64,000 bases of DNA. Origin: Bradyrhizobium diazoefficiens. GTDB taxonomy: Bacteria > Pseudomonadota > Alphaproteobacteria > Rhizobiales > Xanthobacteraceae. Position 1 is the stretch's first letter. Each line of letters starts with the position of its first letter. Below are positions 36,982 to 64,000 of this stretch, piece by piece. The notes beneath the pieces were generated by a model. It ran no database searches. It was not told the DNA's origin and saw only the letters and a list, made by a program, of their open reading frames with translations. A program made the translations under genes and the position numbers. The stretch lies in the NCBI RefSeq assembly GCF_016616235.1, contig NZ_CP067100.1, positions 620,001 through 684,000 on the forward strand. The letters are read 5' to 3'.

Positions 36982-37071
36982 GGAGAGATGGCCGAGTGGC
37001 TTAAGGCGCACGCTTGGAAAGCGTGTGTGCGGGAAACCGTACCGTGGGTTCGAATCCCACTCTCTCCGCCA
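36982..37071 (+). tRNA. tRNA-Ser (anticodon GGA)
   Basis: A complete 90-base class II tRNA. The acceptor stem GGAGAGA pairs with TCTCTCC, the anticodon stem CACGC/GCGTG encloses TTGGAAA with anticodon GGA (reads UCC/UCU), and a long variable arm is present as expected for serine. The T arm reads GTGGGTTCGAATCCCAC, and CCA is encoded. tRNA 3' ends are common integration sites; the DNA downstream differs strongly from that upstream. Confidence 0.96.
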
Positions 37072-44033: not shown

Positions 44034-44151
44034 GGCAGTTGGCGACCTTACCCACAATTTCAATCAGAAGATTGACGACGGTCAGTACCGGGATCAACCA
44101 TTCCGCGATCTTGCGGGTAAGGGTCGCCATACGTGCTAAAAACTTGCGCAT
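43993..44151 (-). CDS. 52-aa membrane protein overlapping the reverse transcriptase start
   Basis: A 52-codon frame: basic N terminus (MRKFLARMATLTRKIAEW), one TM helix (WLIPVLTVVNLLIEIVGKVA) and a short polar tail. GGAGA is six bases before the ATG, a better ribosome site than the reverse transcriptase itself has. It overlaps the reverse transcriptase gene by 41 bases in another frame, so the two are translationally linked. It resembles small membrane effectors or toxins in organisation; no family was recognised. Confidence 0.55.
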   Translation of the reverse strand: MRKFLARMATLTRKIAEWLIPVLTVVNLLIEIVGKVANCHDRQLRVQISVAR

Positions 44152-44530: not shown

Positions 44531-44992
44531 TTACCGGCTTCCGGTATCCCCGGCCGATGAACTGAGCAAAGCCTGCTGCTGATCCCACTCAGCTGGGATG
44601 GACTTCAGGAGCTGAGCCAGCTGAAGACCGTCCGGCTGCAGCCCATTCAGGATGGCTTCGGTAATGGCCGGCGAGAGCAGCGTGAGCCGCAGCACCCGGC
44701 AGAGATAGGACTCGTTGATCTTCTCGGCCTTAGCGAGGTCTCGCACCGAGCTAAACAGGTTCGATTCCAGCATATTGCGCCAGCGATGGGCCCGCACGAC
44801 CGCCTTGACCAGCGTGTTGTCGACCTGCGGCTGCGGCGGCGACCAGGCTTCCGCATTGGCCGGGGTTACGACGCGTTTACGACCGCCCTGCCGGCGAAAC
44901 GAGATCGGGATGCGCACGACCATTGTTCGGCCGTCGCGACCGAGCTTCGGTCGACCAATGGGGCCGAGGGTGAGGGTGGTTGGCCTGTTCAT
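44531..44992 (-). CDS. Recombinase-associated protein of unknown function
   Basis: A 153-aa protein whose ATG overlaps the recombinase stop (ATGA), so the two are translated together. It begins with a basic stretch (GRPKLGRDGRTMVVRIPISF) and contains a helix-turn-helix-like part (SSVRDLAKAEKINESYLCRV followed by LRLTLLSPAITEAILNG). Proteins of this type accompany large serine recombinases in alphaproteobacterial islands and may act as a DNA-binding directionality or accessory factor. The longer frame to 45,151 lies inside the recombinase gene and is rejected. Confidence 0.65.
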   Translation of the reverse strand: MNRPTTLTLGPIGRPKLGRDGRTMVVRIPISFRRQGGRKRVVTPANAEAWSPPQPQVDNTLVKAVVRAHRWRNMLESNLFSSVRDLAKAEKINESYLCRVLRLTLLSPAITEAILNGLQPDGLQLAQLLKSIPAEWDQQQALLSSSAGDTGSR

Positions 44993-46368: not shown

Positions 46369-46808
46369 TTGCCCACCGAGTTCTTCAAGCCGAAGAAGAC
46401 CCAACCATTCCATTTTGTGCCGGTGATCTGGCGGGCGACGGAGGACAGCGACTTGTAGGGGCGGCCTAGATATTCAAAGTCGTCGTGGCGAACGGTGACG
46501 CAGTGCTCAACGCCTTCCCATTCACGGATCAGCTTCGTCCCGGCGACGGGCCGCAGAAGCGGTCGAATTTTGCGATCCGCCGGCTTTTGGTCGGCATACT
46601 GCTTGGCCATGGCTTTGAGGCGCTCGGTGGTTTCCCGGGTCAGGCCGCCATAGGCCAGCTCCTGGATGCGGTAGGCTAGCCGGCTCTCCAGGAATCGTCG
46701 GTTGTAGGCAGGCGGCTCGGTGTCAAATAGTTCGCGCCAGCGGGCCTTCAGGACGGGGGCAGCGGCGCCCTTCAGGGCGGCCAACTGCGCCAGCATAGAC
46801 GAATTCAT
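46365..46808 (-). CDS. DUF2924 domain-containing protein
   Basis: A 147-aa basic protein matching DUF2924 (LKARWRELFDTEPPAYNRRF, ESRLAYRIQELAYGGL, and the C-terminal HDDFEYLGRPYKSLSSVARQ). DUF2924 proteins almost always precede a serine recombinase, as here, and share a GxxYxSLSxxA motif typical of DNA-interacting SAWADEE/RAMA-like modules. The role is probably to help recombination. The start at 46,808 follows GGAGAAGGG; the frame upstream to 46,934 is not family-like. Confidence 0.82.
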   Translation of the reverse strand: MNSSMLAQLAALKGAAAPVLKARWRELFDTEPPAYNRRFLESRLAYRIQELAYGGLTRETTERLKAMAKQYADQKPADRKIRPLLRPVAGTKLIREWEGVEHCVTVRHDDFEYLGRPYKSLSSVARQITGTKWNGWVFFGLKNSVGK

Positions 46809-47004
46809 GACCCTTCTCCGATCGGCGGTATGGGTCGACCACCGCCTGGAAAACGAGCGGAGTAAAGCGGATCTTTTCCGTTCAGGTCCGAAACTTGACT
46901 GGACTTTCGGTTCAACAGGCGCGCTAGACCGCACGCCAAAATCTCAGATATTTCGGACAAACAGACATCAGCTGCGGGGTTCGGTGTCGTACCGACCCGC
47001 TGAC

Positions 47005-49211: not shown

Positions 49212-50525
49212 ATGGCAATGTGCAAAAGGCCGAGGCAAGACATGACACACGCGGCGTACCCAGAGGAAGCGAACGCACGACTTCAAATCGAATACTGGCC
49301 GCTTGATCGGCTAATCCCCTACGCGCGCAATGCGCGCACCCATAGTCCGGCCCAGGTCGCCGAGATCGCCGGCAGCATTCGCGCCTTTGGCTTTTCGAAC
49401 CCGATCCTCGTCAGCGAAGGCGCAGATATCATCGCGGGACACGGCCGGCTAGCCGCTGCTCGCAAGCTTGGTCTGACAGAGGCGCCGGTCGTGGTCCTCC
49501 GAGGATTGACGGAGGTGCAACGCCGCCAGTTGGTGCTTGCCGACAATAGGATTGCGCTAAATTCAGGTTGGGACAGCAAGATGCTAAGCCTCGAACTGGC
49601 TGACCTGTCTGCGTTGGGTGCCGATCTCGCGTCAATTGGCTTCAGCAAAAAAGAGTTGGCGGCCGCGCTATCACGGGTCGAGAGCGGCTTAACGGACGAA
49701 AACGATACCCCCTCGATCGTCGAGGTCGCCGTCTCCCGACCCGGTGACATCTGGCAGCTCGGCCCTCATCGCGTTGCGTGCGGCGATAGTCGAGACGCAG
49801 CTCTCGTCCGTTCACTGCTGGCTGGTGCCTTGCCTCAATTGATGGTCACCGATCCGCCTTATGGCGTCGACTACGACCCGGAATGGCGTCATCGTCGGGG
49901 CGTCAACAATTCGAAGCGAACCGGCAAAGTCCGCAATGACGAGATCGCCGACTGGGCGCCTACCTGGGGCTTATATCCAGGCGAGATCGCTTATGTCTGG
50001 CATGGTGCTTTACGGTCGACTATCGTAGCCGAAAGCCTTCTCAAGAGCGGCTTTTCGATCCGCGCGCAGATCATCTGGGCCAAGGAGCGCTTAGTCATGA
50101 GCCAGGGAGACTATCACTGGCAGCATGAGCCCTGCTGGTATGCGGTCCGGAAGAAGGGTAACTGGACTGGCGATCGCAAGCAAACGACCGTCTGGAATAT
50201 CAGCAGCGGCGGGCAGGATGCCGAAACCAAGCACTCGACCCAAAAGCCGGTCGAATGCATGCGCCGGCCGATGCTAAACAATTGCAGTCCTGGACAGGCG
50301 GTATATGAACCCTTCCTTGGAAGCGGAACGACCCTGATCGCGGCGCAATCGTGTGGGCGCATCTGCTTGGCGTCCGAGATCGATCCATTGTTCGTCGATG
50401 TCGCGATCCGCCGTTGGCAAGCCTTCACAGGTGAGAAGGCAATTCGCGAGCGAGATGGCGCCTTCTTTGATTCGTTGGAGCAGGAAACGCAATCCTCGGA
50501 TGGCGCTCATGGTCCGCTAGTGTGA
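49212..50525 (+). CDS. ParB-like domain fused to DNA methyltransferase (beta class)
   Basis: A 437-aa phage-type protein. Residues 28-112 form a ParB/sulfiredoxin-like domain (IAGHGRLAAARKLG at about 74-87). The rest is an N6-adenine or N4-cytosine methyltransferase with DPPY (MVTDPPYGVD, about 211-220) before FxGxG (YEPFLGSGTTLIAA, about 365-378), the order of the beta class. Such fusions are standard in prophages and islands and protect DNA from host restriction. Its stop overlaps the small terminase start (GTGA). GC-rich purine run upstream is the ribosome site. Confidence 0.88.
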   Translation: MAMCKRPRQDMTHAAYPEEANARLQIEYWPLDRLIPYARNARTHSPAQVAEIAGSIRAFGFSNPILVSEGADIIAGHGRLAAARKLGLTEAPVVVLRGLTEVQRRQLVLADNRIALNSGWDSKMLSLELADLSALGADLASIGFSKKELAAALSRVESGLTDENDTPSIVEVAVSRPGDIWQLGPHRVACGDSRDAALVRSLLAGALPQLMVTDPPYGVDYDPEWRHRRGVNNSKRTGKVRNDEIADWAPTWGLYPGEIAYVWHGALRSTIVAESLLKSGFSIRAQIIWAKERLVMSQGDYHWQHEPCWYAVRKKGNWTGDRKQTTVWNISSGGQDAETKHSTQKPVECMRRPMLNNCSPGQAVYEPFLGSGTTLIAAQSCGRICLASEIDPLFVDVAIRRWQAFTGEKAIRERDGAFFDSLEQETQSSDGAHGPLV

Positions 50526-51074: not shown

Positions 51075-53108
51075 ATGGTCGCATATGCGAGCTATACGGC
51101 TCAAGAATTTCTCATTACGCCGGACGACGCGATTTTCGCCCGTCTGGTTCGAAGTGATGCAGTTTCTGGCTTCAGCCAATTCTCTCATAAACAAGGATGG
51201 TCGTGGGGTGAAGCCGTTCGGCTTATGAAGTCGGTTTGCGAGCAGCTCATCGCCGCTGATGTACGATATTCAGATGTCGGCATCGTCTTGGAGTACCGCA
51301 TCCCCCGCCGAGAAAAGCGGTTGGATGCTGCCTTCCTATTTCGCGAAACAATCGCAGTTGTTGAGTTCAAAGCAGGGAGTTCCGCAGCGACGAGCGAAGC
51401 TTTGGCTCAAGTTGCCGACTATTGTCTCGATCTGGCCTACTATCACGCGGAAAGCCGAGGGAGGAAGATCGTTCCCATCGTGTGCTCAACGGAGGCCCAG
51501 TCCAGCCAGGTAGTGCCTACCTCCGATGCGACGTTGATCGAGGACACACAGTGCGTCGGTGAAGCGGATTTCGCGGCACTGTTGACCCGCATTGCAGACG
51601 GCGACAGGCAGGGGACTTCTGATAATATTTCGCACGTGCGGTGGTGCGCGAGTTCCTATCGACCGATTCCTGGAGTCATTGAAACCACGGTAAGCTTGTT
51701 CAACAAGCACGGCTCGGACGACATCAACGCCGCGCTGGCCGACCGCAATACGATCGATCGCTCAATGAGGGCGATCGAGGGCATCGCGCGAGAGTCTCGC
51801 GAGCGGAGCCAAAAGACTTTGTGCCTTCTCACGGGCGTTCCCGGCGCGGGCAAGACGCTAACCGGACTTCGTATCGCACACAGTCCGGAATTTCTGCAGG
51901 CCGGTTGGCGGAGCGTCTTCCTGTCTGGAAACGGTCCATTGTTGAAGGTCCTGAAAGCTGCTTTGGCGGCGGACTATAAAGATCATCAGGGCTGCACCAA
52001 AGCTATTGCGCAGCGACATGCCGAATCATTGCTGCATAGTGTGCATGCATACCTTGCCGAAGCTCAAAAGACCGAATCGCCGCCGTCAGAGAGCGTTGTG
52101 ATTTTTGATGAAGCGCAGCGCGCCTGGGATGCAGCCAAGATGCAGAAGATGGCGGCGCGACAGCGTAGCTTCGGTGCCGTGACTGAATTGTCGGCACCTG
52201 CTACGGCAACTTCCGAACCGGCTCAGATTCTCGAAGTAATGAACCGCCATGCGGACGGCGTCATGGTCGTGGCTCTCTGCGGAAGCGGGCAAGAGATCCA
52301 TGATGGGGAAGCTGGCGTTGGAGAATGGATCGCCGCTCGGAATCAGTCCTATGCCGATTGGCGGCTCATCTGTAGCCCTTCTGCGATAGAGCGAGCGGGT
52401 GTGGACGCCGCGGGCGTAAATGCCGAAGTGTGGCCAAGTATGCATCTGACCAGCTCAATCCGCAGTCATCGTGCGTCTGAGCATGCTGATTGGGTGGATG
52501 CTGTGCTGACGGGACGTCCCAAAGATGCGCGCCAACACATAGATTATACCGGTTTCCCGATAGCCCTCGTCAGGCGGCTGGATGATGCTAAGGCGTGGCT
52601 ACGCAAGACGACCCTCGGGTCTAGGCGCTTCGGCTTGGTCGCAAGTTCGGGCTGTTCTCGCTTGAGGCCATATGGGCTCGAAGTTTCTGCCGGGTTCAGG
52701 AAGGAATTGGACTACGCTGAGTGGTTCACCGCGCCGCGAGGTGATTTGCGATCGTCATTTGCATTGGAGACCGCCGCAACGGAATTCGAGTGCCAGGGCC
52801 TCGAGTTAGATAGGGTGGCCATTTGCTGGGGGTGGGACCTGACCGTTGGCGATGGTGAACTTCTGCCGCGGACATTCCGCGGGACCAACTGGACCAACGT
52901 GAGGCGGCCGAGGGAGCGCGAGTACACGATCAACAAGTATCGTGTTCTTCTGACCAGGGCACGTGAGGGAATGGTGATTTGGGTGCCCCTGGGAGACGAG
53001 GAGGACCAGACCAGATCACCGTTCGAGATGGATCGGCTGGCCGATTACTTGGTCGATTGTGGCGTGCGGCCTATTCGGCAATCGGTCAACGGCTCACTTC
53101 TTCCATAA
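51075..53108 (+). CDS. DUF2075 helicase with PD-(D/E)XK-like N-terminal domain
   Basis: A 677-aa protein. The N-terminal 150 residues have a nuclease-like core, LDAAF (Asp84) then VVEFKAG (Glu97, Lys99), the PD-(D/E)XK pattern. From about 245 comes a DUF2075/Schlafen-type SF1 helicase: Walker A GVPGAGKT (254-261), Walker B VVIFDEAQRAWD, and a C-terminal part with INKYRVLLTRAREGMVIWVP. Such single-gene nuclease-helicases occur in defence islands and probably attack invading DNA. The final codons (LLP, stop) lie within a direct-repeat copy, so its 3' end coincides with a candidate attachment site. Confidence 0.78.
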   Translation: MVAYASYTAQEFLITPDDAIFARLVRSDAVSGFSQFSHKQGWSWGEAVRLMKSVCEQLIAADVRYSDVGIVLEYRIPRREKRLDAAFLFRETIAVVEFKAGSSAATSEALAQVADYCLDLAYYHAESRGRKIVPIVCSTEAQSSQVVPTSDATLIEDTQCVGEADFAALLTRIADGDRQGTSDNISHVRWCASSYRPIPGVIETTVSLFNKHGSDDINAALADRNTIDRSMRAIEGIARESRERSQKTLCLLTGVPGAGKTLTGLRIAHSPEFLQAGWRSVFLSGNGPLLKVLKAALAADYKDHQGCTKAIAQRHAESLLHSVHAYLAEAQKTESPPSESVVIFDEAQRAWDAAKMQKMAARQRSFGAVTELSAPATATSEPAQILEVMNRHADGVMVVALCGSGQEIHDGEAGVGEWIAARNQSYADWRLICSPSAIERAGVDAAGVNAEVWPSMHLTSSIRSHRASEHADWVDAVLTGRPKDARQHIDYTGFPIALVRRLDDAKAWLRKTTLGSRRFGLVASSGCSRLRPYGLEVSAGFRKELDYAEWFTAPRGDLRSSFALETAATEFECQGLELDRVAICWGWDLTVGDGELLPRTFRGTNWTNVRRPREREYTINKYRVLLTRAREGMVIWVPLGDEEDQTRSPFEMDRLADYLVDCGVRPIRQSVNGSLLP

Positions 53109-53113
53109 CATCT
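53097..53113 (+). repeat. Direct repeat copy 2 (CTTCTTCCATAACATCT), candidate attachment site
   Basis: Seventeen bases identical to the copy at 60,318-60,334; the inner TTCCATAACATC is also at 44,474. The helicase stop codon TAA is inside it. It divides the phage-like/helicase cassette from the five-gene Zorya-like operon. Confidence 0.6.
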
Positions 53114-53389
53114 CATATCCGAATGACGTCAGATGTTCGCAAAAGAAGGCGGACGTAATCGTCGATTCGGCTTCGCGAGCTAATGGCGAACGGCTCGTCG
53201 CGGAGATTGGCAACGCGCTCAGGCGATCTTACTCAAAACGGCGCACCCGGTAATCAGTCCGGCATTTCCGCTGAGACGGAAGCGAACTGCCCGTCTAAAT
53301 CTTAGGGCATCTCGCGGCAAGCTGTGTGGCGTCATGGTCCACGCTATGCAATCCTGAGACCGGACACGCCTCTTCAGGGATGTTATTGA

Positions 53390-54622
53390 TCAATGCGCGA
53401 TCGCGGTCGTACCCGGCGTTGGTCGGATCACGGGCGTTGCTGCCAATTTGGGCGGTGAGGACGGTTGTCGGGGTAAGAGGAATATGGGCGCAGGTGCCGC
53501 GGGGCGGGGCTTGACTGGAGCGACCGGCGCACGGGGCGTAACACTTGGTGCGCGAGCGGGAGTGGGCTGCGCAATGCTCGCGGTGGCCTCATGGGCGCTC
53601 GACTTCCGCAGCCGAATTTCAATTCGGCGCCGTTCCGGGATATTCGCGGGAATCCCCTCGATTGCGAGCGTCTCATCTGTATTCACGAGCTGCGCGCCTG
53701 AAAGTGGAATGATCTTGTAGTTTGCAAGCTGCGCGTTCTGCTTGAGGGCGCTCACGACCGATACTGCACGTGCCAGCCCCAAGCCGGCGTTGTCGGCCGG
53801 AACAAGCTTTGCGACCTCCGTCTTGCCTTTCAGGACGGTCAGCAAATCCCGGTCCAGATTGGACTGGTGCACGCCGAGGGGCTGCTCATCGGTGTGACCA
53901 ACCACCTCGACGACATCCACCTCATACTGTTTAATGTACTCCAGCACCTTGGTTGGGATTTTGGTCAGGAGGCTATCACGGAAAGGTGCAGAAAGCTCTG
54001 CGCTCCCGCTCTTGAAGAAATTGCCGTCAGCCTCGCTGAGGCTGATGATCGGTGGCCACAAATGGCCAGGCGCGCCTCCGGCCGGAGCGGTACGCTTAAG
54101 CGCATCGATGATGGACTGTGTTGATACAGAAGGCTCGCCCGGCTTTGCCAGCTCACGGTTGATCGCCGCCATGGTGTTTGCGTCTTTGACCGCCTTTTCG
54201 ACGTCGATGCCATTGGCATCCAACGTCTTGACTTGTGCAATCCGCTCACGAAGCTCCTTCAGCGTCATACCGGACTTTTTGAGCTCATCGGCGGTTGCGC
54301 GACCTTCCACCAGTTCCCGCCAGTATTGATCAATTGCCTGAGGATCGCTACCGCCTGCGAGAGCCTTGAGCTTTTCGACGAGGGCCTCGTTCTTGCCCAG
54401 CGTTTGTACAAGGTCTTGACTGCGTTGATTATCGGCAAGCAGCTGCTCGACGCGCTTGTCCGCCGCAGCGCGCTTCTCCTGCTCCTTCAGGATGAAGGTC
54501 GCCATGGCAATGAGCAGACAGAAGACCAGGAGGAGCATGATTTCTGCCATCGTCAGGCCGAGCACCAGGCCCTTCCGGTACGAGGAGCCTTGCCTGCTGA
54601 TCTGGCCGTTCACGACTGACAT
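53390..54622 (-). CDS. ZorB/MotB-like protein with OmpA domain
   Basis: A 410-aa inner-membrane protein with one N-terminal TM (about residues 20-45, TMAEIMLLLVFCLLIAMATF). Glu27 stands where MotB and ZorB have a proton-carrying Asp. A long coiled coil (about 45-170) follows, then a periplasmic OmpA-like peptidoglycan-binding domain (VVGHTDEQPLG; GLARAVSVVSAL; PERRRIEIRLR) and a Pro/Ala-rich tail of about 65 residues. It is last in a five-gene operon, nine bases after the channel-like gene. Together they should form a wall-anchored, ion-driven complex like MotAB, TolQR or ZorAB. Confidence 0.72.
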   Translation of the reverse strand: MSVVNGQISRQGSSYRKGLVLGLTMAEIMLLLVFCLLIAMATFILKEQEKRAAADKRVEQLLADNQRSQDLVQTLGKNEALVEKLKALAGGSDPQAIDQYWRELVEGRATADELKKSGMTLKELRERIAQVKTLDANGIDVEKAVKDANTMAAINRELAKPGEPSVSTQSIIDALKRTAPAGGAPGHLWPPIISLSEADGNFFKSGSAELSAPFRDSLLTKIPTKVLEYIKQYEVDVVEVVGHTDEQPLGVHQSNLDRDLLTVLKGKTEVAKLVPADNAGLGLARAVSVVSALKQNAQLANYKIIPLSGAQLVNTDETLAIEGIPANIPERRRIEIRLRKSSAHEATASIAQPTPARAPSVTPRAPVAPVKPRPAAPAPIFLLPRQPSSPPKLAATPVIRPTPGTTAIAH

Positions 54623-54631
54623 GGTTGCCGC

Positions 54632-55651
54632 CTAGGTGTTGTGTCCACGGCCGGCCCAAGGGCCGGTGGCATACCGCTGCGCATTCTCCGCGCGGATTTC
54701 GTTCATTAGGTCGTTTAGCGCTGTTGCAAGAACCTGCGTTTGCCGAAGGTTCTCGTCCATTGCCTTTGCCTGTGTCTCGGCACTCTTGTTGAACGAATTT
54801 ACAGCCCGCGAAAGGCCCTGGATCATCGGCGCGAGCTTGATTTCGATAATCTGCTCCGGCGTCTGCAGCGACGTCAACTTGCCCACGACAGTGTCGATCG
54901 CCTTGATCATGGCTGCCGTGCTTCTCGTCAGCCGATCCCCCTGGTCTACCAGCTGCTTGGACATGGCCTCGAACGTCCTTGTCGCCTGGCTGTTCATCAT
55001 ATTGAGGGCTTCGCCCGAACGCTTGGACGCATCCTCAAGAGGCTGACGCGCGGTGACCGCGAAATCCTTGATCTCGCCTGCAAGTTCCTTGCGGGTCTCG
55101 CCAAGGGTCTCCTTCAGCTCATCAAGCGCATCGCCTAAGGACTGCTGGGTCATCCTGCGGAAGGAACTGAACTCAAGAATGGTGCTCTCCAGCTCAACTT
55201 TCACCTTACGAGAGGCTTCGGCAAGCTCTAGGCGCGCCGTCGCTTCAACTTCGATCGGATCGCGGCGCATCTGGTTAAAGAAGATGCGGAGCGCGACGCC
55301 GGCAATCGTCGAGGCGATGGCGATACCAAAATTCCTCACGATCTGCTCGGACCCGCCTTCGGGTGAGAACTGATAGAGCGATACTCCAAGGCTGGTCAGC
55401 GTGAACAGAAAGCCCATGTAATACAGATTATCGCCGGACTGGTCGTCCCGAAGGCGAAAGAGCCGCGCAGATCCGAGGAGGAGCGCGTACCCGATCATGA
55501 TCAGGACGGGCACCGCCGTCACCAAAACAGGTGCGAAATCGTGCGCTTTCGAAAAGACGATGTATCCGCTGCCCGCCAGCACGACGGCGAAGAACACCAG
55601 CCCGCTTAACAAGCCTGGCGGCAAGAGCCTGTCTTTATTGTCGGCCGCCAT
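54632..55651 (-). CDS. ZorA/MotA-like four-TM protein with long cytoplasmic coiled coil
   Basis: A 339-aa membrane protein with TM helices at about 13-33, 40-60, 77-95 and 105-125, the last (NFGIAIASTIAGVALRIFF) like the conserved TM of MotA/TolQ/ExbB channel proteins. About 200 residues of helical, coiled-coil sequence follow (SSFRRMTQQSLGDALDEL; TAMIKAIDTVVGK-like), as in ZorA, whose tail extends into the cytoplasm. Sequence similarity to MotA is weak; the pairing with an OmpA/MotB-like partner supports it. The start is three bases after the VWA-like stop. Confidence 0.68.
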   Translation of the reverse strand: MAADNKDRLLPPGLLSGLVFFAVVLAGSGYIVFSKAHDFAPVLVTAVPVLIMIGYALLLGSARLFRLRDDQSGDNLYYMGFLFTLTSLGVSLYQFSPEGGSEQIVRNFGIAIASTIAGVALRIFFNQMRRDPIEVEATARLELAEASRKVKVELESTILEFSSFRRMTQQSLGDALDELKETLGETRKELAGEIKDFAVTARQPLEDASKRSGEALNMMNSQATRTFEAMSKQLVDQGDRLTRSTAAMIKAIDTVVGKLTSLQTPEQIIEIKLAPMIQGLSRAVNSFNKSAETQAKAMDENLRQTQVLATALNDLMNEIRAENAQRYATGPWAGRGHNT

Positions 55652-55654
55652 CGG

Positions 55655-56491
55655 TCATGCTCCCTGCAGGCGCTTGAGGCTGCCGATCAGTCCGCGATTG
55701 TCCGAGATCCATTCTCGCCAGAAGCCCATCAGCTGGCCGTCGTCCACAACCGCCTTGCCGTTCACCTGGCGGCTAACCAGCCGTACGAAAACCGTCGCAT
55801 CGTGGAGCTCGGTCCGGTACTTCAAATAGGCAGGGGATTGCCTGAACCGCTGATAGGACAGGTCACCGGATCGGGGATATTGGCTGTAGTCCTTTGTGGA
55901 CTCGATCATGTCGGAGATGACGTAGAGTGTCTTTTTGGTGTTTTGCCTGGCGCTCCCGGAAAACTCGCTTATCGCAATGTCCTGGATCGCGCCCATGATC
56001 GGTGAGGCGGTGGCCCGGGCCGGCGTGACACTCTTATCGATGGCCTCCAATGCCGGCTTGCGGAAACTCTCGATCCAGCGCAAGCGCGCAGCCTCGATAT
56101 TGTTTGTCCACTCGCTAAGGCCCGTACCGTTGCCGGGATTACATTTGGCAAACAGCGAGCGGCTGCGTAGGCCGGCGATATCGAGCACCCGGATGTCGAG
56201 CTTGTGGTAGGGCGGTAGCGTGGTGACGATCTCCTGCAGGAGCCCGAGAACCTCGCGCCGAGTGGCATCAGGCAAATCATCCGACGTATCGATCAATACG
56301 ACGGTGACACCTTGGGCACCGCCAAGAGGACAAAGGGTCTCCTCAGCCACGGTCGGGGGCCGCTCGGTGAAGAACGCCAAATACATCAGCGCTGCGCCAC
56401 AGGAGACCGCAACCAGGAAAAGAACAATGCCGAGGTATCCTGCCCAGCCGATGCCGGGGGAACTCCGTCGCCGCGGTGTAGGCCTAGCCAC
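55655..56491 (-). CDS. Membrane-anchored VWA-like protein
   Basis: A 278-aa protein with one N-terminal TM (about 16-41) and a domain starting with a hydrophobic strand and acidic loop VVLIDTSDDLPDATRRE (about 64-80), as in von Willebrand A domains, although the MIDAS pattern is DTSDD rather than DxSxS. A later strand reads TLYVISDMIESTKDY. It probably lies outside the inner membrane and binds a protein partner. GTG start after AAGGA; it overlaps the preceding gene by eight bases. Family call is tentative. Confidence 0.55.
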   Translation of the reverse strand: MARPTPRRRSSPGIGWAGYLGIVLFLVAVSCGAALMYLAFFTERPPTVAEETLCPLGGAQGVTVVLIDTSDDLPDATRREVLGLLQEIVTTLPPYHKLDIRVLDIAGLRSRSLFAKCNPGNGTGLSEWTNNIEAARLRWIESFRKPALEAIDKSVTPARATASPIMGAIQDIAISEFSGSARQNTKKTLYVISDMIESTKDYSQYPRSGDLSYQRFRQSPAYLKYRTELHDATVFVRLVSRQVNGKAVVDDGQLMGFWREWISDNRGLIGSLKRLQGA

Positions 56492-57938
56492 TCTTGCTGT
56501 CCTTCTCCGGAAAGAACTGGTCGATCTCGCGGTAGGACCGCATCGCCCGTTCGAAGGCCTCGTTGATGGCTTTGATCTGGTCCTTCAATAAGCCTTGGGT
56601 CTCGTCAATCATCTGGCGCAGCCGATCGCGGGCAGTCGAGTCGGGTTCGGCATTGGCATACACGATGCGTTCGAGGACAAACGGCTTGGCGAAGGAGGCG
56701 GGCGGTGGGGTTGATCGTGCCTTGCGATTCGCCTCGCGATATAGGCCGAGCAGTGTGCGGCCTGCCGTCTCGATCTGGTTCTGCTGCTGGATGAAGCGCT
56801 GATTGAGCCGGCTCCGGCCCTGGAGGATCGAGTCGTATTCGGCGCGCCGCTTCGAAAGATCGGTGGATGCCGCGTTCATAACGTCGGTGGCGTCCTGTCG
56901 AATGTCTCTGAGCCGCTCGATCAGGTCGCTTTTGATATCCGTGAATTGCTTGCTAGCGTCGTTCCAGCGCCGCTCAAGACCGGCATAGCCGATGTAAGGA
57001 TCGAAGAACGTGAGTCCGTCCGCCATCGCGACAAGCGAGAAAACCAGGCCGATGCTGATAAACACCCACGAATTGACGTCAGTCAAATCGAAAGGGGCCG
57101 TCAGGAGGCGATGCAAAACATCCTGGCCCACATCTCCGGCCAGACTGGGCTTCATTTCGCGAAGGTGCGCAAGGGTCAGGTTCAGTGCACCCGCGAAGGC
57201 CAGATAGCTGACAAAGAAGATCGCGCCGATCAGCTTGAGTAAAAGATTGCGGTGGAAGATCGGCCTGATGAGGACCAAGCCCCACAAGAAGCTCGCAAGG
57301 ATGTTCAGCGCGGCAAACGTGGCCGCCTGGATAGCCGCGCCGATATAACCGCCCATATTGGCCTTGGAGAGGAAGCCCGCGTTGACCGCGACCTCGATCA
57401 CAAAGAGAATCGCAAGCAGCCCGACCTTCAGGATAATCTTTCCTGGCGTTGCTAGCCGGGCCGGCCGCTGCAGACGGTGCCGCTTGCGGAACGCCTCACG
57501 TTCCAGCTCAGATTCATGGAGCCGGCGACGGTGGACGAACAACTCGTCGCGCCCCATAGTCGCTTCCGCTTCGAAATCTCCAACGGCTTCTGGCGCGGTT
57601 TGCTGGATCACAGCGAAGCGCTCCTCGAAACTGAGCGAGGTCATGCGTTCGTCGTACGTATGTAGATGGTCTTGGTAGACCGAATGAGAATCTTGCTTGT
57701 GGGCTTCTATCCGCTCGACAATTAAATGTTCGACGTCGTCCAGCGTCTGGTCATCGGAACCTGGCCGGTTCTGTGAACCGCGTTCCCGGCCAAGATTCGT
57801 GAGCTTCAGCTCGTCCGCTACTCGGTCGACGTTGAGATCAACGAATACGGTCGTGGCCGGACGATAGTCGTGCGGCGGCTTGTTGAGCAGGGCCCAAAGC
57901 CGCGCGATTGGGGAGAGCCGTGTCTGTGATCGGTCCAT
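56484..57938 (-). CDS. Four-TM coiled-coil membrane protein
   Basis: A 484-aa protein, no family recognised. Cytoplasmic N-terminal 165 residues are charged and helical (HLIVERIEAHKQDSHSV; RRRLHESELEREAFRKRH). TM helices lie at about 168-190, 198-226, 233-256 and 291-313. A long charged coiled coil follows (about 325-484, with IKSDLIERLRDIRQDATDV). The layout matches a membrane sensor or scaffold, and the coiled coil could meet that of the ZorA-like protein. The ATG at 57,938 is preferred over TTG at 57,950, which directly follows the SNase stop. Confidence 0.6.
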   Translation of the reverse strand: MDRSQTRLSPIARLWALLNKPPHDYRPATTVFVDLNVDRVADELKLTNLGRERGSQNRPGSDDQTLDDVEHLIVERIEAHKQDSHSVYQDHLHTYDERMTSLSFEERFAVIQQTAPEAVGDFEAEATMGRDELFVHRRRLHESELEREAFRKRHRLQRPARLATPGKIILKVGLLAILFVIEVAVNAGFLSKANMGGYIGAAIQAATFAALNILASFLWGLVLIRPIFHRNLLLKLIGAIFFVSYLAFAGALNLTLAHLREMKPSLAGDVGQDVLHRLLTAPFDLTDVNSWVFISIGLVFSLVAMADGLTFFDPYIGYAGLERRWNDASKQFTDIKSDLIERLRDIRQDATDVMNAASTDLSKRRAEYDSILQGRSRLNQRFIQQQNQIETAGRTLLGLYREANRKARSTPPPASFAKPFVLERIVYANAEPDSTARDRLRQMIDETQGLLKDQIKAINEAFERAMRSYREIDQFFPEKDSKSG

Positions 57939-57950
57939 CGTGGTTCGCAA

Positions 57951-58676
57951 TTAAAGCTTCGATTTACGGCAGCCGGCAGCCTGGGCTTCCGCCTCGGTGC
58001 AGAACCAGCGCCGCAACGAACTCGGCTGCATGCTCAGCCTGTCGTAAAAGCGACCGCCCGGCACGTGATATATGCATTGTGGCGTACTGCTCAAATTACC
58101 TTTGATCAAACAATTGCCAGTCGGTGGTGCAGGATTCGCTGCCGTATTCGAGACTAAGGCTCGCTGCGCTGAGGATGGGACGGAGAGTGCGCCCAGGATC
58201 TCCGTCGAATTACTGCGATGGCGCCAATCCCAAGGGGCTATGAAAGCTCCGCCCCAAAGTCCGCGCTGATGTTCGCGCGCCAAATTTTCGTCGTTGACGT
58301 ATTCCGCGGAATATCTGCGAAACGCCAAAGCCCAGCCGTTCTGGACAAGCCACCGCGATACGTTCTCGCCGCCGACCGCGCATAAACCAAGCGATCGCCT
58401 GTAAATGTCCGTGCCCGTCAGCTCGCAGGACCACTCCCGGTCTTTACTGAAGGACCGCAGGCGCTCCCGCGCTTCGATGCCGCAAGTCCATGTTTTGCCC
58501 GCAGCATCAAGACAGATCTGATCGGTCTCGGGGGCGTCGACCCCGCTAAACCGGATCTTGGTCTGGCCGATGTAGACGGTGTCTGCATCAACGATTTGCG
58601 GCACGCCGCGCACCTGCCCGGCGCCCGCGGCGTGCATGCTGATGAATAGGGCTGCGACAGCCAGCAATTGCCGCAA
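57951..58676 (-). CDS. Secreted staphylococcal-nuclease-like (SNase) protein
   Basis: A 241-aa exported nuclease. A signal peptide (LRQLLAVAALFISMHAAGAG) precedes an SNase domain with all catalytic positions: Asp32 (VDADTVYIG), Arg42 and Asp47/Glu50 (IRFSGVDAPET), and Arg94 (TDIYRRSLG). It should cut DNA and RNA with calcium in the periplasm. The C-terminal 80 residues contain two cysteine pairs and a small extra domain. TTG at 58,676 after GGGGGG is preferred over the frame from 58,826, which would bury the signal peptide. It is first in the five-gene operon. Confidence 0.75.
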   Translation of the reverse strand: MRQLLAVAALFISMHAAGAGQVRGVPQIVDADTVYIGQTKIRFSGVDAPETDQICLDAAGKTWTCGIEARERLRSFSKDREWSCELTGTDIYRRSLGLCAVGGENVSRWLVQNGWALAFRRYSAEYVNDENLAREHQRGLWGGAFIAPWDWRHRSNSTEILGALSVPSSAQRALVSNTAANPAPPTGNCLIKGNLSSTPQCIYHVPGGRFYDRLSMQPSSLRRWFCTEAEAQAAGCRKSKL

Positions 58677-59014
58677 AGATCCCCCCTTTTTGCAACAATC
58701 TTCGATAGTTAACAGTCTATTACACTTTTTAGGCGAATTGGGAGAGAAGGACGCTTGCCTTGATGATATGGTTAATCGCCGAGCTTCAGCTCGCATTAGA
58801 TGGTAACCTGAAACCCGCAAACTCAACCACGCGATGCATCAGTTTCTCGACCGTCGCTGACATCCGACCCAAACCTCTTTGGTTCCGTGTGGCGTCAACG
58901 TGAACATCGGCAGCTGGCCGATTTGTACGGTCTGATCAACGAACTCGGCGCGCAGCCAGCGATCAGAGCAAATATCTGGGCCGGGCGGTTTTAACAGTTC
59001 CCTAGGAGCACACT
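58677..59014. other. Divergent promoter region of the SNase operon and nuclease gene
   Basis: 338 bases between the two divergent units. It is A/T-richer than its surroundings (TAACAGTCTATTACAC near 58,708), as expected for promoters. No operator or RNA gene was recognised. Confidence 0.4.
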
Positions 59015-60250
59015 TTGGATCGACAACATAGCGCGCCTGTTCTTCTCACTGCAGAGGGATACTCTGTTGTTCTTGAGCCGGTCCCGCAGCGCGGTTCAAC
59101 GTCAACGATGCTTGAGGCGCAAATACAGGAGTTAGTCCATGCTCACCCCTCCGCGCTGCCAATCGCCGAAATTGATCCTATGTTTGTGGGTGCGATTAGC
59201 GTCTGCCGGGAAATGCAACTTGGCAAGGCTGGGCGCGTCGACAATTTCCTAATCACTCCTTCGGGCCTGCCGGTGCTGGTCGAGTGCAAGCTGTGGCGTA
59301 ATCCGGAAGCGCGGCGGGAGGTGATCGGCCAGATCCTCGACTATGCCAAGGTGCTTAGTCGATGGTCTTTTTCTGATCTCCAGCGAGAAGTTGGGAGCCG
59401 CACAGGCATGGGGCCGGACGCACTTCTCCAACTTGTCCGCAGAGTAGCCCCGAATGCTGACGAGATCCAATTCACCGACGCTGTCACGGCAAACCTACGC
59501 CGCGGTCGCTTTCTGCTACTAATCCTCGGTGATGGAGTGCGCGAGGATGTCGAGGCCATAGCGAGTTATCTGCAGATACATGCCGGATTGCATTTCACCT
59601 TTGGTCTTGTGGAATTTCCGATATATCGGTTGCCTAGCGGAGAGCATCTGGTCGCACCCCGTGTCGTCGCCCGCACAACGTCCATTTTGCGCAATGTCGT
59701 TGCGGTGCCTGAACGCTTTATTGTGCAGGATCTGAACGAAGTCGCAGCTGAAGATGACACAGAGATCGATCCAGACCGCGCTGCTTTGGCCGCTACACAG
59801 CAGGCGTTCTGGAAGGAGTTTTTGGACGCTCATTTGCAACTGGACGATCGGACCCAAGGCGTCCCCAAGCCTGCGCGTCAGGGCTATCTCGCATTTATGT
59901 TGCCGGCCCCCCAAGGCAGCAGCTGGCTCACGGTCTTCCGAGACCTTCACAAAGGAGAGGTTGGCATTTTCCTCTCTGCCAGTCAGAACAGCCCCGGCGA
60001 GATCGCTATGAATGAAATCATTGCCAACTGGGACGAAATTAAACCCGCTTTGAACGGCACAGCCCGGCTAACGGACGATAAATATAATCGCAAGCGGATC
60101 ATCGATTCCAAGACAGTAGGAAACTTGAACGACACTGCCATTCGAAAGGTGGCCTTTGACTGGTTGGCGGAGCGCGTAAACACCTTTGTGAACGTCCTGC
60201 GTCCCAGAATCCGCGACGCGGTCGCGGATGAAGCGGGACACGTCGACTAG
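59015..60250 (+). CDS. PD-(D/E)XK nuclease, NucS/DUF4268-like
   Basis: A 411-aa protein. The N-terminal half has a restriction-endonuclease fold: KAGRVDNFLI (Asp76) and VLVECKLWRNPEARREVIGQ (Glu90, Lys92), the D-ExK triad with the following Gln-containing helix. The C-terminal part (about 300-400, SWLTVFRDLHKGEVGIFLSA) resembles the DUF4268 type often attached to such nucleases. It would cut DNA. TTG start after TAGGAG. It is divergent from the SNase operon and is the only other gene between repeat copies 2 and 3, so it may belong to the same system or be independent. Confidence 0.68.
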   Translation: MDRQHSAPVLLTAEGYSVVLEPVPQRGSTSTMLEAQIQELVHAHPSALPIAEIDPMFVGAISVCREMQLGKAGRVDNFLITPSGLPVLVECKLWRNPEARREVIGQILDYAKVLSRWSFSDLQREVGSRTGMGPDALLQLVRRVAPNADEIQFTDAVTANLRRGRFLLLILGDGVREDVEAIASYLQIHAGLHFTFGLVEFPIYRLPSGEHLVAPRVVARTTSILRNVVAVPERFIVQDLNEVAAEDDTEIDPDRAALAATQQAFWKEFLDAHLQLDDRTQGVPKPARQGYLAFMLPAPQGSSWLTVFRDLHKGEVGIFLSASQNSPGEIAMNEIIANWDEIKPALNGTARLTDDKYNRKRIIDSKTVGNLNDTAIRKVAFDWLAERVNTFVNVLRPRIRDAVADEAGHVD

Positions 60251-60317
60251 CGGTACTTTAGCACGCTGCTGTTCTTGCGCTCCCAGTCATTCGGAGAGGA
60301 GCTAGGCCTCTGGCTGT

Positions 60318-60334
60318 CTTCTTCCATAACATCT
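60318..60334 (+). repeat. Direct repeat copy 3 (CTTCTTCCATAACATCT), candidate attachment site
   Basis: Identical over 17 bases to copy 2 at 53,097-53,113. It lies 67 bases after the nuclease gene and before the McrBC segment, so copies 2 and 3 enclose exactly the SNase/ZorAB-like operon and the nuclease. A tag-ASGCLLP-stop relic here mirrors the LLP end of the helicase gene at copy 2. Confidence 0.6.
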
Positions 60335-60395
60335 GTTTCGCGAACTCGGCTATCGCTGTGGGCACCGGCTCGTCGGGAGCCTCAAGAGATAAACT

Positions 60396-61160
60396 TCATT
60401 GCTCTTGCTCGGCATCGGCCTGCTGCACCAGTCGAGCAAACGGCAGAAGTCGTTGTGCGGCATCCATCGCTGCGTCGATCAGCACTATTTGCTTTTCAAA
60501 GGGGGCGGTACAATCGACAGGTTCGGTCTTTGTCACCAGGTCCACCGTCCTCTCGTGTTGCTTGAGCCACATCGAACTCGGGAGATCTTTTAATTTGCCC
60601 GATGCGATGTGCTTCCAGGGACCCTCGTATACAAGAGATACAATGGATTTTGTGAAGCTGTGCACCAGCCTCATGTGGGGAGGAAAATCGACTGCTTTAA
60701 AATAATATGCCTTATCACCTCCCGGCTGGTGGGTGAGATCAAATTGCTTGTATCTACTCAAAACGTACGCTCGGTAAGCCTGCTTGAAGCTAGTAAGTGC
60801 AATTTCTTCTCGGCTTTTTGCGGCATTCTGTTGATGCAGGAGGGTCACACTGATCACGTATCCGTCGGGTCCGTTCCTGGGTGACTCTATCGCGCCGGCT
60901 GAGACAGCATGTCCAATACAGCCCTTGTCCATGCGGCGCTTGTCGCCGTTGAAGTCCACGAACACGGGCACATCTCTCGTCCCGAGATGCCACGCTATGT
61001 TTTCCAATTGCTTTAAGAAGTGCTGTTGGCGCGGACCCTTTGCGGCCGCCGTTGTCTTACCAAGGGAGCTCGCATCAAACACAGAGTCGGATGCGACGAA
61101 CGTCTCCGTTCCCTCGCCGTATGGCTCATAGTCCAATGGGACTGGCTTCCAATAGGGCAT
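60396..61160 (-). CDS. Unknown protein between nuclease and McrBC genes
   Basis: A 254-aa soluble protein, no family recognised. It contains VFVDFNGDKRRMDKGCIGHA and DGYVISVTLLHQQNAAKSRE, a basic middle and a helical acidic end (LLPFARLVQQADAEQEQ). The mixture of a conserved-looking Asp/Asn/His region and an alpha/beta pattern might be an enzyme, but no motif fits a known one. It is divergent from mcrB with about 95 bases between starts. Confidence 0.5.
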   Translation of the reverse strand: MPYWKPVPLDYEPYGEGTETFVASDSVFDASSLGKTTAAAKGPRQQHFLKQLENIAWHLGTRDVPVFVDFNGDKRRMDKGCIGHAVSAGAIESPRNGPDGYVISVTLLHQQNAAKSREEIALTSFKQAYRAYVLSRYKQFDLTHQPGGDKAYYFKAVDFPPHMRLVHSFTKSIVSLVYEGPWKHIASGKLKDLPSSMWLKQHERTVDLVTKTEPVDCTAPFEKQIVLIDAAMDAAQRLLPFARLVQQADAEQEQ

Positions 61161-61255
61161 TGCAAAATCCAGTCTTGTCGAGCGATATTTGCAGAACTTG
61201 TTACAAACTATAGAGCTCGACTGTTAGGTTGCATAGTAACTCTGGAAAATTGTTG

Positions 61256-63430
61256 ATGAGTCAAGCTGACGATATTCGCCATTTCGTGCGTGAGAACTTC
61301 ATTGAGCCAGCAAGAGCGCACGGAGAGAGCTCTATCTCGATTAGAGCGGGCGATGTGCACAAGGCGATGGCGCTTAGCAACGCACTGCCTGCCGTTTGCA
61401 GTGCGATCGGCAGTGACAAATTTATTGAAGAGGCTGCCGTTCTGCTGGTCGCGAGAGAAGGTCCCCAAAACAGTACCTCGACGACTTTCAAATTTGAACT
61501 CGCAAACAGTGAATCCCTCAGCGTTCCTCTGGCCGAACAAGAACTGCGCCGCCGCTACGGGACACCGGACGTCGATACAAAAAACTTGATATCGTTTGAT
61601 TTGCCAGATGCGCGAGCAATCGCCCTTCAGCGGGGCAATGCGATGGTGCAACTCTGGCTTGAGGACAATGGGCCCGTCCCCGGAGCGGAGCAAAGATTGT
61701 ATGAGCCCAATGAGGGCCGGCATTCAAACCTACCTAACCGCTTGGCGCATCAGCCGACCGCGTCCTTCAGGGAGCAGGGTTTCCCTCGACCTGTACGAAG
61801 CGTCCGTGTGACAAGTCGTACGCAGCTAACGTCAATACTGGATTGGTACGAGCAGCGAAGTTCGGGCGACCGCGCACCGGAAGGAGGCCCGGCGAGACTT
61901 AGTGACCGGAAGGTCGGTGTGGCGCGGCAGCTTCCAACGAATTTGATTCTCTATGGTCCCCCAGGAACAGGGAAAACATACTCCAGCGCGCGTGAAGCTG
62001 TGGCGTTGTGTGATGGGGAGCTACCGAAAATACCCGGCCGGACGGCGCTCATGGAACGTTTCAATGCTCTTAAAGAGGCGGGTCGAATCGCCTTCGTAAC
62101 GTTTCATCAAAGCTACAGCTATGAAGAATTCGTGGAGGGGCTAAGGCCTGAAACTGCGGCGCAGGATCGCGAAGGCCAAAATGCCGTAGGCTTCAGGTTA
62201 AAACCAACCGATGGCATTTTCAAGCGCGTGGCCGCGGTCGCCCAGCAAGCAAGGAGGGCAGCGCCATCCGGTATAGACCTGCACACTCGAGAGTTTTTCA
62301 AGATGTCGCTCGGCTCGGTAGATGAGGACGAAGATGTCTATCGATCGTCGATTGATGAAGGCTACATCGCGCTCGGATGGGGAACCGAGTTTGATTGGAG
62401 CGATCCAATTTACCGGGAGTTTGATGCGATTCTGGAAAGGTGGCGCACTGAGGACACGAATGTAACTAGCCAGAGCTCTCGCGTGCGCCAGAGCCACTAC
62501 ATGAGGGCGGTAATTAAAGAAGGAGATATAGTCGTTGTCTCGTACGGGAATAGCCAGTTTAGAGCGATCGGTGAAGTAATCGGCCCCTATGAGTACGTCG
62601 CAAACGCAAGCCAATTCCGCCATAGACGAAAGGTTCAGTGGCTTCGAGTATTTGATCGCCCTCTGCCAGTCGAGACAATCCTACGAGGAAAATTCACGCA
62701 GCTTGCCCTTTACAAGCTGGATCGAGATCGGCTCAATCTTTCGGCGCTGAACACCCTCATTGGTGAGGGCAAGCCAAGCGCTTCAGATGAGGGGCCGCCG
62801 CTTCCCTATGTTTTGATTATCGATGAGATCAATAGAGCTAACATCTCAAAGGTATTCGGCGAACTTATTACGCTGATCGAGCCTGACAAGCGTCTCGGAA
62901 CCGAGAACGCGCTGACGGTAACTCTGCCATATTCGGGAGAGGATTTCGGTGTGCCGGCCAATTTGCACATAGTTGGGACAATGAACACAGCCGATCGATC
63001 GATCGCGCTGCTCGATACCGCCCTGCGACGGCGGTTTCAGTTCAAAGAGCTAATGCCCAACCCTTCCGTCTTAGGTCGAGTTGGTTCGATTGACGTTTCA
63101 TCGGTGCTGCGGCGAATAAACGAGAGGGTGGAATACCTCTTTGATCGGGAGCACCAGATTGGTCACGCATATTTCATAGGCTGTGACACGAAACATCAAT
63201 TGGACGACGTCATGCGTAACAAGGTCATACCTTTGCTCGCTGAGTATTTCTATGACGATTGGGAAAAGGTCAGGCTAGTCCTCGGAGAGACGAGCGACGA
63301 AGGAAGATTCGTTGTTCGAACAAAGCTGCCGCCTCCGCCATTTCTTCCCGAAGAGAGTGCGCCAGAGCGGTTTCGGTATACGGTTCGTTCTAATTTCCTA
63401 GAGGGGGCCTATGAAGGTTTAACGGTGTGA
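61256..63430 (+). CDS. mcrB: McrB-like AAA+ GTPase of a McrBC restriction system, with EVE/PUA-like insertion
   Basis: A 724-aa protein. An N-terminal specificity region (1-220) precedes the AAA+ motor: Walker A LYGPPGTGKTYSS (234-241), Walker B VLIIDEINRANI (near 523) and the McrB signature GTMNTADRSIALLDTALRRR. Unusually, about 150 residues (343-500) are inserted between Walker A and B; they read like an EVE/PUA-type modified-base reader (EFFKMSLGSV; YIALGWGTEFDW; VVVSYGNSQFRAIGEVIGPY). McrB recognises modified DNA and drives cutting by McrC. ATG at 61,256 follows GGAAAA; a TTG 27 bases earlier is less likely. GTGA overlap couples it to mcrC. Confidence 0.85.
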   Translation: MSQADDIRHFVRENFIEPARAHGESSISIRAGDVHKAMALSNALPAVCSAIGSDKFIEEAAVLLVAREGPQNSTSTTFKFELANSESLSVPLAEQELRRRYGTPDVDTKNLISFDLPDARAIALQRGNAMVQLWLEDNGPVPGAEQRLYEPNEGRHSNLPNRLAHQPTASFREQGFPRPVRSVRVTSRTQLTSILDWYEQRSSGDRAPEGGPARLSDRKVGVARQLPTNLILYGPPGTGKTYSSAREAVALCDGELPKIPGRTALMERFNALKEAGRIAFVTFHQSYSYEEFVEGLRPETAAQDREGQNAVGFRLKPTDGIFKRVAAVAQQARRAAPSGIDLHTREFFKMSLGSVDEDEDVYRSSIDEGYIALGWGTEFDWSDPIYREFDAILERWRTEDTNVTSQSSRVRQSHYMRAVIKEGDIVVVSYGNSQFRAIGEVIGPYEYVANASQFRHRRKVQWLRVFDRPLPVETILRGKFTQLALYKLDRDRLNLSALNTLIGEGKPSASDEGPPLPYVLIIDEINRANISKVFGELITLIEPDKRLGTENALTVTLPYSGEDFGVPANLHIVGTMNTADRSIALLDTALRRRFQFKELMPNPSVLGRVGSIDVSSVLRRINERVEYLFDREHQIGHAYFIGCDTKHQLDDVMRNKVIPLLAEYFYDDWEKVRLVLGETSDEGRFVVRTKLPPPPFLPEESAPERFRYTVRSNFLEGAYEGLTV

Positions 63431-64000
63431 TTCATCGAACGGTTAAGGAGTGGGACTATCTGCAGATTGAGCCTGCTTCGAACGGGCCCAGGGCGTTCAC
63501 CCGGTCCGTCGCCGATCGCGTAATGAGCGTTGCTCGTAGCGCGAACTTAGGAGGTGATGGCGGGGAACGAGTATTGCTGGAGGGGTCGTCGAAGCTCCGC
63601 GCACAGCAGGTTGTTGGTGTGTTGGTCGCAAAAGGTGTGACCGTAGAAATTCTGCCAAAAATCGAAGGGTTGAGCGAAGATCAAGCGATTCGGCGAAGCC
63701 TCGTGCATATGTTGGCTCTAGTTCTCGATCTAGATATCGCGGTCGGGGCAGCCGCGGCCTTTACCTGGCAGCATGAGAACTTGCTAGAAATCCTCATTCG
63801 CCTGTTCAGCGAAAAGCTATTCGCTATGCTGCGTCAGGGAATGCCGAGGGCGTACACTGGTCGCGAGGATGACTTGCCGGCTCTGCGTGGGAGCCTTAAC
63901 GTCGTGCGCCAGTTTACAATATTGGCATCAACGCCACAAAGACTGGCGTGCCGCTTTGACGAGTTGAGTCCGAACATCGTCCTAAATCAAATCATGAAAG
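63427..64000 (+). CDS. mcrC: McrC endonuclease subunit, N-terminal part
   Basis: Begins with GTG overlapping the mcrB stop and runs off the window end after about 191 codons. The visible part (MIHRTVKEWDYLQIEP; VGVLVAKGVTVEILPKIEG; FTWQHENLLEILIRLFSEKL; ALRGSLNVVRQFT) matches the N-terminal domain of McrC, which contacts McrB. The PD-(D/E)XK nuclease domain must lie beyond base 64,000. With McrB it forms a GTP-driven restriction complex against modified DNA. Confidence 0.82.
   Translation, partial: MIHRTVKEWDYLQIEPASNGPRAFTRSVADRVMSVARSANLGGDGGERVLLEGSSKLRAQQVVGVLVAKGVTVEILPKIEGLSEDQAIRRSLVHMLALVLDLDIAVGAAAAFTWQHENLLEILIRLFSEKLFAMLRQGMPRAYTGREDDLPALRGSLNVVRQFTILASTPQRLACRFDELSPNIVLNQIMK

Follow-up and report, generated by a model that had tools for sequence, protein, structure and literature searches.

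A five-gene envelope operon of Bradyrhizobium diazoefficiens with motor-like features and a swappable, predicted periplasmic nuclease

Introduction

What is an exported nuclease doing at the head of an operon that ends with a pair of putative motor proteins? The question is raised by a locus in a 64,000-nucleotide stretch of contig NZ_CP067100.1 of Bradyrhizobium diazoefficiens (assembly GCF_016616235.1, positions 620,001 to 684,000 of the forward strand). The whole stretch is here called the window, and its own numbering is used. Five genes, A to E, form an operon at 53390–58676 on the minus strand, transcribed in the order A, B, C, D, E. A first-pass annotation had proposed them as a candidate new defence system, and the five packed genes are all present where it had placed them, on one strand. 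Neighbouring open reading frames (ORFs) of the operon are separated by gaps or overlaps of −8 to +9 bases in the ORF list. In searches of the openly licensed literature, no paper was found whose title or abstract opening describes this operon.

We have high confidence that the operon represents a real, conserved and mobile system of the envelope, many copies of which carry a swappable periplasmic nuclease. The best reading is a motor-driven envelope system whose swappable, predicted periplasmic nuclease is a putative defence against incoming DNA, and its chance of being right could be put at about even.

A Conserved and Mobile Block

The genes B, C, D, and E constitute a conserved block of constant order, seen mainly in Alphaproteobacteria. 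The scan of GTDB genome contigs with D yielded 106 relatives, and 80 loci were kept. With C as the query, 385 genomes of the class gave 14 hits, of which one is doubtful. G214 was dropped: it shows a match to C (E = 7.7e-4), but no core gene is there. Six rows from other classes of the phylum, which contain C-like proteins only, without B, D, and E, were also left out. Across 92 loci, a partly redundant count (L016 and L047 are one plasmid, and L058–L061 are nearly identical), the genes found are in the order B-C-D-E, and five loci contain B-C or B-C-D only.

The operon as a whole also recurs. The cassette at 53381–58786 shows 89.4% identity with a locus of a second genome, L139 (blastn, E ≤ 1e-10). 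Beyond these positions, no blastn match at the same threshold was found between the flanks of L139 and the window (19 kb compared). Since the cassette recurs between unrelated flanks, the complete set of five can be transferred together. The order kept in 92 loci, together with the sharing of the operon alone with the second genome, indicates that the operon is not due to chance. The earlier claim that the genes form one unit is thus upheld, and the genes do recur together elsewhere.

The distribution is patchy. Among 100 relatives, C was found in eight, five of which are among the 60 of the same genus. B is present on 24 plasmid records, 11 of them typed as conjugative and four as mobilizable. 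In all 11 of the plasmid records inspected, C, D, and E lie beside B, and an annotated thermonuclease is beside the block or one gene away in eight of these copies and not in three. The block is also seen on two viral contigs, which are prophage-like; B did not match any phage record. Five loci (L134, L137, L022, L024, and L027) contain B-C pairs without D-E, and the pair in L134 adjoins a type IV secretion system (T4SS) coupling protein and a type III restriction-like protein.

The Nuclease and the Anchor

A is an exported SNase-type nuclease with a C-terminal 'sunset' domain. Its longest frame is 57951–58826 on the minus strand, and the likely start is TTG at 58676, which gives 241 aa with an apparent signal peptide. 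The SNase domain (PF00565) scores 42.4 bits against the Pfam cut-off of 21, the only Pfam cut-off passed among the proteins A–E, and the sunset domain (NF051437) scores 37.5 bits. The catalytic set, which we take to be D80, D82, R92, D97, E100, and R144, is invariant at all six positions in 19 of 19 aligned proteins, the window protein included, so that the nuclease assignment by the first-pass annotation can be retained. Four Cys of SNase are likewise invariant (19/19). No match of A to PDB sequences was found at E ≤ 1. The whole 7.67-Mb window genome contains seven SNase places.

E (53390–54622, minus strand, 410 aa) is the MotB/ZorB-like anchor. A short N-terminus is followed by one transmembrane (TM) helix, and an OmpA-like peptidoglycan-binding domain is present. 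Glu27 in the TM helix, a residue pointed out earlier, is invariant in 36 of 36 aligned E proteins, and the profile of the E family finds PomB through its OmpA domain (structure 3wpx, E = 8.6e-7). Both facts agree with the MotB-like assignment made at first. The Pfam model of OmpA (PF00691) is over its cut-off in L135, L136, and L026, and window E is below it, at 20.2 vs. 27.2 bits. The match of E to PADLOC ZorB is weak (20.5 bits).

In some relatives, a nuclease is fused to E. The protein ends in an SNase domain in L018, L025, L026, and L135 (E length 488–670 aa). The L136 protein (601 aa) has GmrSD_C at its C-terminus instead (PF07510, 44.2 bits), a domain of the HNH type (former DUF1524) and unrelated to SNase. 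The C-terminus of E, hence the fused nuclease, should be periplasmic: E is of the MotB type, and the topology of the MotB family predicts this place for both nucleases. The tie of the nuclease to the motor on the periplasmic side, as first proposed, is therefore supported by the fusions in these five loci. Two unrelated nucleases as the last domain of the same anchor suggest that the likely output of the machine is nucleic-acid cutting just outside the inner membrane.

A search of the database with residues 1–440 of the L136 protein yielded at least 131 relatives of E, 120 of which, one subfamily, are listed. Among these 120, the SNase profile matched five and the GmrSD_C profile, built from 21 of the same relatives, matched 50. 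Precomputed Pfam domains also give GmrSD_C in 50, and SNase in only three. With the profile of 21 C-termini, no separate GmrSD_C gene was found in the loci collected to that stage.

Separate SNase genes are also seen near the block. In the single-sequence search of the 92 loci, 20 have SNase ahead of B on the same strand, two have it after E, and three have it fused to E. In 14 others it is encoded on the opposite strand, up to 2.9 kb away, and it was not found in 48 full blocks and five partial ones. The profile search of 41 non-redundant loci found SNase within 1 kb in 18 (including a fragment in L019 and a divergent SNase in L086, with 19.9 bits vs. 21 in Pfam), SNase fused to E in four, and GmrSD_C fused to E in one. 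The fragment in L019 (7684–7920), upstream of B, is a 78-aa remnant of the SNase C-terminus in a decayed or disrupted copy. In 20 control stretches of 14 kb (280 kb), taken at round coordinates from 11 genomes with the block or its B-C part, neither the SNase nor the GmrSD_C profile matched.

The Motor-Like Protein D and Its Partners

D (54632–55651, minus strand, 339 aa) is a putative motor subunit similar to ZorA, ExbB, and TolQ. Its model contains four TM helices and a coiled coil, with no large loop between TM helices 2 and 3. T84, S87, T115, and G118 are invariant, each in 34 of 34 proteins. In the fold search, chains of ZorAB complexes rank first. D thus appears nearest to ZorA in its modelled fold; sequence profiles give no confirmation, and the motor-like features are weaker here than in E. 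The score against NF033914 (ZorA, NCBIfam) is 16 bits vs. a cut-off of 190, on residues 154–321 (coiled coil) alone, and that against PADLOC ZorA1 is 22.2 bits, on residues 150–324 alone. PF01618 did not match D at E ≤ 1; it matches seven other places in the window genome, six above cut-off. The profile of D against PDB sequences gave no proof of a relation to ZorA: its matches to ZorA chains are confined to the coiled coil, where many unrelated proteins of this kind also match. The weak coiled-coil matches of D were taken as noise. At least 1,759 relatives of D are in the database, and the 120 listed are either unnamed, annotated as 'hypothetical protein', or given a doubtful name (ElaB/YqjD, chemotaxis protein).

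C (55655–56491, minus strand, 278 aa) contains one N-terminal TM helix and a VWA domain. Its AlphaFold model has a pLDDT of 90.1. The fold search of PDB gave 115 matches at E ≤ 0.001, the best at 2.5e-6, and nearly all of the 50 listed are of the VWA/I-domain type, in line with the first description of the protein as VWA-like. By sequence, C did not match Pfam, and its profile did not match any VWA protein. The canonical MIDAS motif DxSxS is not seen in C; its place is taken by the variant D68-x-S/T-D71, both Asp of which are invariant (36/36), with S163 (35/36) and D194. Cys54 and Cys117 are also invariant (36/36). The invariant Cys of A and C agree with a periplasmic location, an oxidising compartment. 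In L127–L132, which belong to other classes of the phylum, a VWA protein resembling C follows a multi-TM protein of ~525 aa and an OmpA protein with a glycine zipper; Pfam recognizes OmpA in L127 and L132. This arrangement is possibly a sister system with another motor.

B (56484–57950, minus strand, 488 aa, or 484 from ATG) is a membrane protein with four TM helices and flanking coiled coils. F154, E186, N190, G201, N257, D317, and Y319 are invariant in the alignment of 36 members. No Pfam or NCBIfam cut-off was reached and PADLOC matches are weak only; the matches to TerB (E = 0.09) and LeoBC (E = 0.011) were taken as noise.

Comparison with Known Systems

The operon resembles Zorya (types I, II, and III) in its putative MotA/MotB-type pair, wall-binding domain, long coiled-coil tail on the A subunit, and predicted coupling to a nuclease. 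Membership of Zorya is, however, ruled out by the NCBIfam and PADLOC scores and by missing partners: among ten window proteins (51075–63999), PADLOC at E ≤ 1 found none of ZorC with ZorD, ZorE, or ZorF with ZorG, which bears out the earlier remark that ZorC/D and ZorE are missing. The operon here has extra VWA and four-TM proteins. The TM acid of ZorB is Asp, whereas that of E is Glu. Zorya effectors other than ZorE are cytoplasmic, whereas the nuclease here is predicted to form the periplasmic end of E or to lie next to it. Passages of a Zorya study describe ZorA5B2 with a need for ion flow, and, in Zorya II, the nickase ZorE, which is cytoplasmic until it is recruited to ZorAB on infection (PMC11890865). 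The mode of action of the operon would be similar to that of Zorya, but with the cutting moved to the opposite face of the membrane.

SNIPE (DUF4041-GIY-YIG), as described in passages of PMC13190303, is a nuclease held at the inner membrane, on its cytoplasmic face, where phage DNA enters. A nuclease at the inner membrane is the predicted common feature, but SNIPE consists of a single protein that lacks a motor and whose nuclease is cytoplasmic. Neither DUF4041 nor the GIY-YIG nuclease domain was found in A–E by Pfam. A DUF4041-T5orf172/MUG113 gene, which has the SNIPE architecture, adjoins the SNase of one plasmid copy (L143: 14237–16470).

The TolQR/ExbBD/MotAB stators (PF01618) share with the operon the D/E gene pair, the TM acid and OmpA domain in E, the polar residues within the third and fourth TM helices of D, and a similar fold of D. 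They differ in the PF01618 match and the large TM2-TM3 loop, both absent from D, and in their partners; the fused nucleases are also different. In the main text of a survey of stator evolution, ZorAB is treated as a remote homologue and the word 'nuclease' is absent (PMC12505986). In VWA conflict systems with peptidoglycan-binding domains, vWA-MoxR is combined with iSTAND proteins in ternary systems (PMC7159879). These also bring VWA and OmpA-type domains together in one kind of system (PMC7159879), but Pfam shows neither a MoxR nor a STAND domain in A–E.

Genomic Setting

The operon lies in a genomic island at 36982–64000. At tRNA-Ser(gga) (36982–37071, plus strand), the GC content drops from 0.64 to 0.58 and stays low to the window end, and this tRNA gene is the probable attachment site. 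The island contains a reverse transcriptase (RVT_1, 43302–44063, 47.7 bits), possibly a retron- or DRT-type defence gene, a serine recombinase (44989–46413), a DUF2924 gene (46365–46934), a ParB-N/DNA methylase gene (49212–50525), and the small subunit of a phage terminase (50522–50995). On one side of the operon is an SLFN-g3 helicase, the PADLOC candidate PDC-S41 (51075–53108, plus strand, 716.5 bits). On the other side are a partial PDC-S11-like protein (59015–60250, plus strand, E = 1.4e-7 in PADLOC) and a McrB-like AAA ATPase with a McrC-like protein cut by the window end (61229–63999, plus strand). The McrB-like protein scores 126 bits with PRK11331, under the cut-off of 637, and the McrC-like one scores 83.6 bits with PF10117 (McrBC). 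The first-pass annotation had described a defence island with McrBC and PD-(D/E)XK genes. The island with McrBC stands, but the PD-(D/E)XK genes do not: Pfam gives only a sub-threshold PDDEXK_9 match (E = 0.13) in the helicase at 51075–53108.

In other genomes, the flank genes matched 31 and 86 PADLOC models in two batches at E ≤ 1e-25 (238 of 239 genes, 36 loci), and control genes matched 18 models (119 of 223 genes, from 15 of 20 stretches in eight genomes without the genus of the window). This enrichment is rough, as the counts are of overlapping models and the control itself contains a strong DpdF match. The flank models among the matches listed include Gabija GajA/GajB, Argonaute, AbiEi/AbiEii, type IIG restriction-modification, Cas10/CARF, and AriA. 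Defence context is thus seen for some copies, but several others are in ordinary metabolic surroundings.

The commonest gene cluster outside A–E is ABC-type ATPase-like, seen in 23 loci, many of which are one synteny group. Another cluster (c5) consists of DUF4236 proteins that overlap or lie near the block and could be accessory. A bacterial SH3 domain is present in some of them, and several of the loci are from Mesorhizobium and the Sinorhizobium group (e.g., L058, L060, L064, L066, and L067). A Mrr_cat restriction-endonuclease gene has a 4-base overlap with E in L064 (10408–11541), and a TerB_N-TerB-TerB_C protein is directly beyond SNase in L071 (11199–13913).

Discussion

The operon would encode a trans-envelope machine. 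D and E could form an ion-driven motor of the MotAB/TolQR/ZorAB type, with the OmpA domain of E gripping the cell wall. B, with its four TM helices, may act as a scaffold connected to D through the coiled-coil tail of the latter. C may be a periplasmic VWA module that senses or couples, probably metal-binding and stabilised by a disulfide. A would be the periplasmic nuclease, positioned by the motor and probably armed through it. The most likely role of such a machine would be the destruction of DNA crossing the periplasm, above all phage genomes. It can be speculated further that this is a putative new class of immune machine, in which a proton or sodium motor bolted to the wall carries an interchangeable periplasmic nuclease (SNase or HNH) and cuts phage or plasmid DNA in transit, before the cytoplasm. 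We regard this more specific proposal as tentative, possible rather than probable.

Several facts weigh against a motor-driven defence with a periplasmic nuclease. Regarding the motor, the fold score of D falls within the range of designed helical bundles. The hhalign comparison of the TM part of D with 11 ZorA and seven MotA/ExbB-type proteins gave probabilities of 1.5% and 0.7%, which are not significant; alignments of B, C, and E gave 0.2–0.5% in the same comparison. The MotA/ZorA relation of D asserted at first is accordingly kept for fold similarity and motif position, but not for the profile–profile comparison of the TM part with ZorA. Regarding the nuclease, neither profile matched in 65 of the 120 listed E relatives, and no recognised nuclease is within 1 kb in 18 of the 41 non-redundant loci. 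These 18 include five with B-C or B-C-D only, ten full blocks with DNA around, and at least three more (L034, L035, and L098) whose available sequence ends within 0.9 kb of the block. In five nuclease-free loci, the gene after E is no common partner: it encodes a cyclase domain (L036), an AMP-binding protein (L037), a lytic transglycolase (L038), CcmE (L044), or a dehydrogenase (L055). In the Rhizobium tropici group, the four-gene core is at one chromosomal site without an adjoining nuclease, and several plasmid copies are among metabolic genes.

The nuclease-free loci, the fixed synteny of the R. tropici group, and the metabolic neighbourhoods are what would be expected if the B-C-D-E core were an envelope-maintenance or stress motor, similar to Tol-Pal, with the nuclease as accessory cargo gained and lost. 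Such a motor does not easily account for the fusion of nucleases from two unrelated families to one and the same end of E, for the patchy presence within one genus, or for the transfer of the five-gene unit with its nuclease included, and it is considered unlikely.

The machine could also serve entry exclusion, keeping out conjugative or competing plasmids more than phages, with the periplasmic nuclease cutting DNA from the mating channel. The 24 plasmid records with B, 11 conjugative and four mobilizable, and the B-C copy beside a T4SS coupling protein fit this idea, but chromosomal and prophage-like copies exist and the window neighbours include phage-defence candidates. Besides, DNA in conjugative transfer is generally regarded as protected within its channel. 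A primary role in entry exclusion is quite unlikely.

At least as doubtful is a machine for DNA scavenging or uptake, whose nuclease, fixed by the motor and the wall anchor, would digest external DNA as a nutrient or trim it for competence. In favour of this explanation, the exported nucleases of the SNase and GmrSD_C types have no other obvious substrate; against it, no steady partner gene outside A–E is seen among the neighbours annotated (a part of all neighbours), and some flanks contain defence genes. A divergent Zorya type with an unrecognised cytoplasmic effector and an incidental SNase, to which the ZorA-like fold of D, the weak PADLOC matches to ZorA and ZorB, and the Mrr-type nuclease gene overlapping E in L064 might point, is very improbable given the lack of any ZorC–G match among the ten window proteins scanned, the miss of the ZorA cut-off by D, and the fusion of SNase and GmrSD_C to the C-terminus of E, which is predicted to be periplasmic.

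A motor-driven envelope system with a periplasmic nuclease, acting as a putative defence against incoming DNA, is thus the best reading of the operon. SNIPE and the nickase of Zorya II, as far as described in passages of the respective reports, cut DNA on the cytoplasmic side (PMC13190303, PMC11890865), and the effector here is predicted to be periplasmic. If this is true, the periplasmic effector would solve the problem of self and non-self by place alone, because the host keeps no DNA in the periplasm. The operon would also offer a first handle on the large and poorly named family of proteins related to D.

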